From the NCBI GenBank assembly GCA_016177775.1, contig JACOUQ010000005.1, positions 1 through 64,000 on the forward strand: a DNA stretch of 64,000 nucleotides, read 5' to 3'. This DNA comes from Geobacter sp. (GTDB lineage Bacteria > Desulfobacterota > Desulfuromonadia > Geobacterales > Geobacteraceae). The notes beneath the pieces are model-generated. The model was not told the DNA's origin. It saw nothing but the letters and a program-made list of their open reading frames with translations, and did not search any database. Position numbers and translations under genes: made by a program. Below, in pieces: positions 52,827 to 55,389 of this stretch (position 1 is its first letter; each line of letters starts with the position of its first letter).

Positions 52827-52911
52827 GGGTGGGACTCCTGTTGCTACTTTCGGTTAGAACTTTATACTTGATTGAACAGGCCATGGCAAACAGATTTTGA
52901 GGTGTTCGGGC

Positions 52912-55389
52912 ATGCAGACACTTGTTGACATCTTCAGTACTTTTAAGGATCGGGGCAATGCCACAGCCTTTGTCTATCGCACCGGTGTCCGCCGTTTCAC
53001 GTTTTCTTACGGCGAGCTGTATGACCTTGCTTTGCGGATGGCCCGCCTGCTGGAAGAAAAGGGAGTGAATCCTGGAGACAGGGTCCTTCTCTGGGCACCC
53101 AATTCCCCCTGGTGGGGGGTGGTATTCTGGGGGTGCGTGGCGCGGGGGGCCGTGGTGGTGCCGGTGGACTTCATGTCCGGGAGGGAACGGGCCGAAGGGA
53201 TTGCCGGCCTTGCCGAAACCAGGCTGGTTGTGCAGAGCCGCGCCAAGGTCGAAAGGATCGATGGGGCATCAATGCTCTTCGCCGAGCATCTGGAGTTCCT
53301 GCTGGCGGAACGGAAGCCGCTGGAGAAGATCTACCGGCCGAAACTGGATGATACCGCTCAGCTCATCTATACCTCCGGGACAACCGGCGCCCCCAAGGGG
53401 GTAATCCTGACCCACGAAAACCTGATGGCGAACCTGGACCAGGTGAACCGTCACATACCCGTCGTGACGCCGGAGTTCAGGTTTCTGTCGCTGTTGCCCC
53501 TTTCCCACATGTTCGAGCAGATGGGCGGGTTCTTTATCCCCCTTTCCCATGGCGCGTCAATCGTCTACCTGCGGATCATGAAGCCTTCCGCCATGGTGGA
53601 GGCGTTCCGGGAGGAGGGAGTCGACGCCCTGGTCACCGTCCCCCGCCTGTTGCAGCTGCTGAAAAGCTCTGTAGAGCGGGAACTGACGGAGAAGGGACTG
53701 GAGGGGCCGTTCCGGTGGCTGGTGGGTGCGGCGCAAAACCTTGGGCAGGGGATAAAAAAGTTCCTCTTCTTTCCGGTCCGCCGCAGCTTCGGGAGTCGCC
53801 TCCGCCTCTTCTTCTCCGGCGGCGCCGCCCTCGACCCGGAGGTATTCGCTTTCTGGGACGCGCTTGGGTACACGGTGATCGAGGGGTACGGTCTCACGGA
53901 ATGCTCGCCGGTCCTGACCGCCAATACCATGGAGCGGCAGATCCCCGGCTCGGTAGGAAAGGCGCTGCCTGGCGTGGAGCTGAAGCTGGACGAGGGAGAG
54001 CTCCTGGCCAGGGGGGCAAACGTTTTTCCGGGCTATTTCCGCAACGAGGAGGCAACACGGGGCGCTTTCACGGCTGACGGGTGGTTTCTCACCGGCGACC
54101 TGGGAGAGATCGACGCCGAGGGGTGGTTGCGTATCAAGGGGCGGAGCAAGGAGCTGATTGTAACCGGCGCGGGGATCAATGTTTATCCCGATGAGCTGGA
54201 GGAGCTTCTCAACAAGGCGAAGGGGGTGAGGGAGGCATGCGTGGTGGGGCTCAACCGTGGGTCAGGGGAGGAGGTCCATGCCGTGCTTCTTTTGGACGAC
54301 AGCGGACGACCGCCGGCGGAGATCGTCGGGGAGGTAAACCAGAGCCTCGATGACCTCCACCATATCACCGGCTACTCGGTCTGGCCCGAAGCGGAGTTTC
54401 CGAAGACCACGACCCTCAAGATCCGAAAGTTCAAGGTAAAAGAACAACTCGCCAGGAAAGCGGAGGGAGCGGTGCCGGCGGCCGGCGCGGAACGCCTGGC
54501 AGTGCTCATAGCCGGCGTGACCGGGGCTTCGTTGGATGAGGTAAGGGAAGAATCGGTGCTCGTGGCGGATCTGGGGTTAACCTCCATCGGGAGGCTGGAG
54601 CTGGTGAACCGCCTGGAGCAGGAATACCGGCTCGACCTGGACGATGCCCTGATCGGTCCCCAGACCAAGGTGGCGGACCTGCGGGCCATCCTGGACAAAC
54701 GCGAGAAGGCGGTGGTGTCGGGGAAGTTCCGCTTCTGGACCAATTCACGGCCGATATGCTGGTTGCGGATGCTGGCGGACTGTCTTATCAACCGCCCCCT
54801 TTTCTCATTCTTCGTGCGGCTTAAGGCAGAAGGGGCGGAGCATTTGGCAAAGGTGGAAGGGCCGGTGATATTCGCGGCGAACCACATGAGCTTCCTGGAC
54901 CAGCCGGCAGTCATGTTCTCCATGCCGGCTGATGTCCGCTACCGCACCGCCACGGCCGCGTGGGCGGAATTCTTCTTCGTGAACTTCCGCAACCAACTCC
55001 AGAAGCTCTGGAAACGCCTCTGCTACGAGTACGGGACCCTGGCGCTGAACCTCTTTCCCCTTCCCCAATCCTCCGGTTTCCGCGAATCGCTCCGTTTCAT
55101 GGGGCGGCTTGCGGACAGCGGCAGGAACATCCTGATATTCCCGGAGGGGGCGCGCTCACCCGACGGCAGGTTGTTGCCGTTCGAGCAGGGGTTGGGGCTG
55201 GTGGTGCACGAGTTGCGCCTGCCGGTCATACCGGTTAAGATCAAGGGGTTGGAGCATGTATTGCCGCGAGGGGCGAATTTCCCCAAACGCGGTGATGTGG
55301 GCGTAACGTTCGGCAAGCCAATGGAATTCGGGCTGGAGGAACCGGAGGCGGTGGTGGAGGCTATCCGGAAGGCGATTGAAGGACTGTGA
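52912..55389 (+). CDS. Fused acyl-ACP/CoA synthetase, acyl-carrier domain and PlsC acyltransferase
   Basis: In this 825-residue fusion, residues 1-520 are an adenylate-forming acyl synthetase (QLIYTSGTTGAPKGV at about 145-160, GYGLTECSPVL, WFLTGDLGEID). Residues about 520-605 form an acyl-carrier-like domain with the probable phosphopantetheine Ser558 in DLGLTSIGRLEL. Residues 630-825 form a PlsC-type acyltransferase (NHMSFLD at 657-663, FPEGARSPDG). It resembles Aas (lysophospholipid acyltransferase/acyl-ACP synthetase) but has its own carrier domain and the synthetase placed first. GAGGTG precedes the ATG at 52912. Likely role: membrane lipid acyl recycling. Confidence 0.88.
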   Translation: MQTLVDIFSTFKDRGNATAFVYRTGVRRFTFSYGELYDLALRMARLLEEKGVNPGDRVLLWAPNSPWWGVVFWGCVARGAVVVPVDFMSGRERAEGIAGLAETRLVVQSRAKVERIDGASMLFAEHLEFLLAERKPLEKIYRPKLDDTAQLIYTSGTTGAPKGVILTHENLMANLDQVNRHIPVVTPEFRFLSLLPLSHMFEQMGGFFIPLSHGASIVYLRIMKPSAMVEAFREEGVDALVTVPRLLQLLKSSVERELTEKGLEGPFRWLVGAAQNLGQGIKKFLFFPVRRSFGSRLRLFFSGGAALDPEVFAFWDALGYTVIEGYGLTECSPVLTANTMERQIPGSVGKALPGVELKLDEGELLARGANVFPGYFRNEEATRGAFTADGWFLTGDLGEIDAEGWLRIKGRSKELIVTGAGINVYPDELEELLNKAKGVREACVVGLNRGSGEEVHAVLLLDDSGRPPAEIVGEVNQSLDDLHHITGYSVWPEAEFPKTTTLKIRKFKVKEQLARKAEGAVPAAGAERLAVLIAGVTGASLDEVREESVLVADLGLTSIGRLELVNRLEQEYRLDLDDALIGPQTKVADLRAILDKREKAVVSGKFRFWTNSRPICWLRMLADCLINRPLFSFFVRLKAEGAEHLAKVEGPVIFAANHMSFLDQPAVMFSMPADVRYRTATAAWAEFFFVNFRNQLQKLWKRLCYEYGTLALNLFPLPQSSGFRESLRFMGRLADSGRNILIFPEGARSPDGRLLPFEQGLGLVVHELRLPVIPVKIKGLEHVLPRGANFPKRGDVGVTFGKPMEFGLEEPEAVVEAIRKAIEGL

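Follow-up and report, generated by a model that had tools for sequence, protein, structure and literature searches.

Can a single bacterial protein activate a free fatty acid, hold it on a carrier of its own and pass it to a membrane lipid? The question is raised by a gene in a Geobacter sp. contig (JACOUQ010000005.1, assembly GCA_016177775.1), the first 64,000 nucleotides of which, read on the forward strand, were analysed and are here called the window. The gene encodes an adenylate-forming synthetase, a carrier domain and a PlsC-type acyltransferase, joined in that order in one chain. From sequence and conservation, we consider it the most probable reading (about 0.6) that the protein is a self-contained free-fatty-acid-to-membrane-lipid acyltransferase with its carrier built into the chain. 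If so, free fatty acids would reach membrane lipids independently of the common ACP and CoA pools, and would do so in several phyla, which would matter for lipid repair and for getting around drugs that inhibit fatty acid synthesis.

Gene and domain organization

The reading frame opens with an ATG at 52912, closes with a stop codon ending at 55389 and contains no internal stops. It carries three Pfam domains, so that the single 825-residue chain and the domain order proposed in an initial annotation of this DNA hold. A longer version that starts with TTG at 52897 is less likely, since a ribosome-binding-like hexamer lies 7 bases upstream of the ATG and all rows of a 23-row alignment share Met1. 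The features of the gene and its protein are as follows.

52899..52904 (+): GAGGTG, ribosome-binding-like hexamer 7 bases 5' of the ATG, read directly from the sequence
52912..55389 (+): coding sequence, synthetase-carrier-acyltransferase protein, 825 aa (ORF list, translation, Pfam)
52948..54039 (+): AMP-binding (adenylate-forming) N-domain, residues 13-376 (Pfam PF00501, E 3.3e-76)
54193..54414 (+): AMP-binding C-terminal domain, residues 428-501 (PF13193, 22.6 bits, under the 24.5 cut-off)
54418..54420 (+): Lys503, invariant in 54/54 aligned sequences and 4/4 named relatives
54454..54492 (+): Ala/Gly-rich linker 5' of the carrier, residues 515-527 (poor conservation; pLDDT below 50 at 518-525)
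54493..54696 (+): carrier (phosphopantetheine) domain, residues 528-595 (PF00550; model helices 528-537, 558-572 and 587-595)
54583..54585 (+): Ser558, presumed phosphopantetheine site, opening helix 558-572 in the model; invariant in 54/54 and 4/4
54748..54807 (+): helix 613-632, before the acyltransferase core (predicted models)
54820..55245 (+): PlsC-type acyltransferase domain, residues 637-778 (PF01553, E 2.5e-13; fold match to 5kym)
54883..54900 (+): HX4D catalytic motif, His658 to Asp663, both residues in 54/54 and 4/4
55066..55068 (+): Gln719, at the motif II position that is Arg in stand-alone PlsC (alignment of the clade)
55138..55158 (+): motif III FPEGARS, residues 743-749 (sequence)

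The N-terminal part belongs to the adenylate-forming superfamily by its PF00501 score (257 bits against a cut-off of 29.9) and by the conserved Lys503, which we take to be the C-domain lysine of these enzymes. Fold matches extend its C-domain to about residue 513. Among curated synthetase families, a long-chain fatty acid ligase subfamily scores best, though below cut-off. In the FAAL subgroup, a specific insertion blocks the use of CoA.

An AlphaFold2 model built from 38 alignment rows had a mean pLDDT of 84.8, lower in the carrier region (54-75 by blocks), and the acyltransferase domain modelled alone reached 92.9. The synthetase model matched many CoA ligases, such as 2v7b (Z 47.9, rmsd 2.0, 377 residues), and the whole-model Foldseek and VIA matches listed were taken up by this part. 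Among Foldseek matches, adenylation-carrier didomains aligned over both the synthetase and the carrier parts. The carrier assignment rests on a PP-binding match at residues 528-581 (E 5.7e-6, 26.9 bits against a cut-off of 20.8) and on a DLGLTS motif that sets the carrier serine at residue 558, where the initial annotation had placed it; in the model this serine starts a helix (helix II of the carrier), which is the position of the serine in carrier proteins. The acyltransferase domain has the PlsC fold, aligning with Thermotoga maritima PlsC (5kym; Z 19.9, rmsd 2.9, 191 residues), and its HX4D motif lies within NHMSFLD (residues 657-663). The preceding helix, 613-632, may contact the membrane, judging from the models.

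Distribution and conservation of the family

The initial annotation treated one protein; judged by its sequence relatives, the arrangement is that of a widespread family. A full-span match was found in 31 of 38 near genomes, the genome of the window included, and in none of the other seven; among the 31, one match lies at a contig edge and five genomes carry two copies. Across the phylum, at least 33 of 395 genomes encode a full-span protein (30 listed and three extended by pairwise alignment), a lower bound because two candidates per genome were scored. Matches at E 1e-60 or better occur in 79 of the 395 genomes, many of them to the synthetase only. Full three-domain proteins are also present in Acidobacteria, Bacteroidales, Bacteroidaceae and Opitutales metagenome assemblies; these make up 5 of 80 loci listed, which is no measure of frequency since the loci came from general synthetase motifs. 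Full-length relatives occur in Fusobacterium vincentii, Ilyobacter polytropus and Rubrobacter radiotolerans, and the Ilyobacter and Rubrobacter records give the product only as 'AMP-binding protein'. In I. polytropus two three-domain proteins lie in tandem (L175:5197-10364), both with all the catalytic residues checked.

All 10 relatives scanned with Pfam have AMP-binding, PP-binding and Acyltransferase domains in the same order. Since spanning the query was the condition for aligning a relative, a common architecture among these proteins follows from selection; the conservation of single residues does not. Ser155, Glu330, Asp396, Arg411, Lys503, Ser558, His658, Asp663 and Glu745 are identical throughout an alignment of 54 sequences (the query with 29 close and 24 distant relatives) and in four named relatives, so that Lys503, Ser558, His658 and Asp663 are kept in 58 of 58, Fusobacterium, Ilyobacter and Rubrobacter among them. 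Residues 516-523, just before the carrier, are the least conserved (mean column identity 0.38), as a flexible linker would show. The distances between the active residues are nearly fixed in the 30 close rows, at 54-57 residues from Lys503 to Ser558 and 100-101 from Ser558 to His658.

Five relatives are longer, at about 1400 aa. Pfam scans of two of them, L036:1300-5493 (-) and L045:1-4233 (+), revealed an N-terminal NAD_binding_4/Sterile (fatty acyl reductase-like) region before the synthetase-carrier-PlsC core; the other three (L037, L040 and L046) were assigned by length. These reductase-bearing proteins may make an alcohol or ether-type lipid.

Relationship to Aas and other known systems

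The nearest familiar enzyme is Aas of E. coli, which works with LplT and likewise joins an HX4D acyltransferase and an adenylate-forming acyl synthetase in one chain, with a motif II that lacks Arg. Its domain order is reversed, as the initial annotation had noted: an excerpt of PMC11416262 places the transferase at residues 1-203 and the synthetase at 204-719, with no carrier in the chain and a separate holo-ACP. The Geobacter protein cannot be called an Aas, given its domain order and carrier, its curated family scores and its position in a synthetase tree. It scored 190 bits against 1349 for PRK06814 and 163.1 against 1221 for PRK08633, and PRK08043 was absent among the 25 NCBIfam matches listed for it. 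The initial annotation also called the ACP used by Aas 'free', which appears to be a simplification, as older work reportedly described ACP as a tightly bound Aas subunit.

In a quick tree of synthetase domains, six Aas rows grouped in a single clade (support 100) that joined FadD-type rows (support 99), while the window protein fell in a separate clade (support 100) with the Acidobacterial L058/L059 and L034/L035. The reference synthetases were picked by similarity to the query, with 28 drawn at random from those found, and an OleC-like row with a long branch was dropped from the second tree; the trees are limited to this extent. Independent origins of the fusion were considered, as the first tree gave three groups, yet holding 44 three-domain rows as one clade improved the likelihood by 23.7 with a p-AU of 0.88, and the data are thus compatible with a single origin.

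The PRK08633 and PRK06814 proteins also fuse an acyltransferase to an acyl synthetase. They differ in having an N-terminal MFS transporter and in placing the acyltransferase before the synthetase, and none of the seven MFS-PlsC-synthetase proteins scanned gave a PP-binding match. PRK08633 scored above cut-off in 16 of the 38 near genomes, namely 15 of the 31 that carry the three-domain fusion and one of the seven that do not. A plain Aas role for the fusion would be redundant in those 15, and simple replacement of Aas was therefore rejected as a general account. The frequent coexistence suggests that the two systems serve different acceptors, fatty acids or conditions.

In the literature found, the closest functional idea is that of AasR and AcpR in Caulobacter. 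According to an excerpt of PMC9386255, a synthetase there is dedicated to a specialised carrier and free fatty acids are directed into one lipid; these are separate proteins, and the acyl group goes to serine palmitoyltransferase in sphingolipid synthesis and not to a PlsC-type enzyme. The adenylation-carrier didomains of nonribosomal peptide synthesis (NRPS), such as the EntE-EntB fusion and the McyG A-PCP, resemble the Geobacter protein in that an adenylation domain is followed by its own carrier, and differ in having no PlsC domain. NRPS didomains use amino or aryl acid substrates in peptide synthesis. T. maritima PlsC, which shares the fold and the HX4D motif, is a stand-alone LPA acyltransferase, and the motif II Arg of stand-alone PlsC is missing in the window clade.

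Among the family matches listed, none to a curated family of assigned function spans the whole protein, and no description of the synthetase-carrier-PlsC architecture was found in open-licence PMC literature, which does not prove its absence elsewhere. The architecture is real and conserved. No characterised member was found, and by its sequence features the family would represent a new form of Aas-like enzyme.

The acyl acceptor

The acyltransferase domain departs from stand-alone PlsC at motif II. Gln occupies this position in 34 of 34 members of the window clade (all 30 close rows together with L034, L035, L058 and L059), whereas 22 of 24 stand-alone PlsC taken from the same genome set have Arg; the 24 are PF01553 matches with a fetched locus, a sample that favours high scorers. 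The corresponding residue is Arg in E. coli PlsC and Pro in E. coli Aas. The residue is never Arg in 21 other three-domain proteins, and Arg is kept in all five relatives of about 1400 residues. The stretch between motifs I and II is also longer in the window clade than in stand-alone PlsC or E. coli Aas. Motif III is more variable, with Arg in 21 of the 30 close members, the window protein among them, and His in nine.

Excerpts of an acyltransferase review (PMC4280512) connect two residues with AGPAT activity and with binding of the acceptor, LPA or G3P: the Arg of motif II and the one that follows PEGT in motif III. They also mention a single contrary proposal, in which motif II binds acyl-CoA. 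The window clade thus lacks the motif II Arg expected of PlsC as an LPA acyltransferase. With Arg replaced by Gln, and with E. coli Aas also lacking the Arg, the acceptor is probably not lysophosphatidate; by analogy with Aas, a lysophospholipid that bears a head group is the more likely acceptor. A uniform non-LPA acceptor would not fit neatly with the motif III Arg of 21 of the 30 close members, so that motif III agrees in part.

Genome content and gene neighborhood

The Geobacter assembly comprises 3.42 Mb and is 85% complete. It encodes PlsX, one AcpS-type transferase, two stand-alone PlsC and three PP-binding proteins, two of which are free carriers, and de novo phospholipid synthesis would therefore be independent of the fusion. 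Four AMP-binding proteins were found: the fusion, an OleC-like protein whose best curated matches are PRK09274 and the olefin beta-lactone synthetases (below cut-off), and two proteins close to PaaK, a phenylacetate-CoA ligase, slightly below cut-off. No DegV/FakB-type protein was present in this 85% complete assembly. These contents hint that, at that completeness, the assembly has no other evident general fatty-acid activator than the fusion. The OleC-like protein (L162:1108-2850 (-)) raises the possibility of long-chain olefin synthesis in this organism; the neighboring gene presumably encodes a GNAT-like protein.

The neighborhood of the fusion gene is variable and says little about function. 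In the window it stands alone on its strand with opposite-strand genes on both sides, which we take to encode an archease-like protein downstream and a PHP-domain protein upstream. In 8 of 20 near relatives a gene for a calcium-pump-type P-ATPase lies just downstream on the same strand (for example L139:3304-5931 (-)); it is missing from the window and has no clear lipid link, and was set aside as a functional clue. Three of the 20 relatives (L139:9112-9741 (-), L144 and L150) have the gene for PgsA, the phosphatidylglycerophosphate synthase, upstream on the same strand, and an MFS gene starts within 20 bases 3' of the fusion in 2 of 20, both of one genus (L149:8478-9755 (+) and L147). The L149 MFS protein has a weak curated match only, and the two MFS proteins are presumably spinster-like, to go by their look. 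The spinster family includes lysophospholipid transporters in animals. By curated match, no lysophospholipid transporter was present among the neighbor genes of the 20 relatives.

Proposed mechanism and alternatives

In the favored reading, the N-terminal domain would convert a free fatty acid and ATP to fatty acyl-AMP, and the acyl group would then be passed in cis to a phosphopantetheine arm on Ser558. Swinging on its linkers, the carrier would reach the PlsC-type domain at the C-terminus; there His658 and Asp663 would hand the acyl group over to a hydroxyl on an acceptor lipid at the membrane. The net reaction would be the two-step reaction of Aas, except that the carrier belongs to the same chain, and by this analogy the protein probably works like an Aas with a tethered carrier, perhaps in the recycling of fatty acids. 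The in-cis mechanism is likely: a working in-cis carrier is the best reading of the domain order, the carrier serine and the conservation, in 58 of 58 proteins, of the residues required at each step. If it holds, the single chain would allow one serine mutation to probe both the loading and the transfer of a carrier-bound fatty acid.

That the synthetase is instead an acyl-CoA ligase and the carrier a vestige, with the acyltransferase drawing acyl-CoA or acyl-ACP from the pools of the cell, is very improbable. The nearest curated synthetase families and the fold matches are indeed CoA ligases, but a vestigial carrier should lose its serine, and Ser558 is kept in every one of the 58 sequences, with PP-binding above cut-off in all 10 Pfam-scanned relatives. 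It also seems unlikely that the PlsC domain acts as a normal LPA acyltransferase, with the fusion as an alternative entry of scavenged fatty acids into the de novo synthesis of phospholipids. The fold match to PlsC, the motif III Arg of the window protein and 21 of 30 close members, and the adjoining PgsA gene in 3 of 20 genomes would agree with such a role; the change of the motif II Arg to Gln in 34 of 34 speaks against it, as do the two stand-alone PlsC of the assembly, one of which scores above the 1-acylglycerol-3-phosphate acyltransferase cut-off.

In-cis loading could also be real and the acceptor something other than a lysophospholipid, the clade making another acylated lipid and hence coexisting with the Aas-type fusion. 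We regard this as doubtful. PRK08633-type proteins do coexist with the fusion in 15 of 31 genomes, the motif II Gln and the longer motif I-II stretch are not found in stand-alone PlsC or E. coli Aas, and distant relatives carry an added N-terminal reductase; no biosynthetic pathway is co-localised, however, and the lipid-related neighbors among the 20 relatives amount to PgsA in three and the MFS protein in two. Somewhat tentatively, the tethered-carrier enzyme can be pictured as an insulated assembly line that keeps recycled or foreign fatty acids from the ACP and CoA pools and uses an acceptor that is neither LPA nor a substrate of Aas. Were this so, bacteria would have a third way of using free fatty acids, a widespread one next to Aas/AasS and FakAB, and in this organism it would be the only one.

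Apart from this family, weak PF01553 matches were seen in open frames of 723-763 aa at G025:C7, G006:C18, G004:C191 and G008:C20, which point to another multi-domain acyltransferase.
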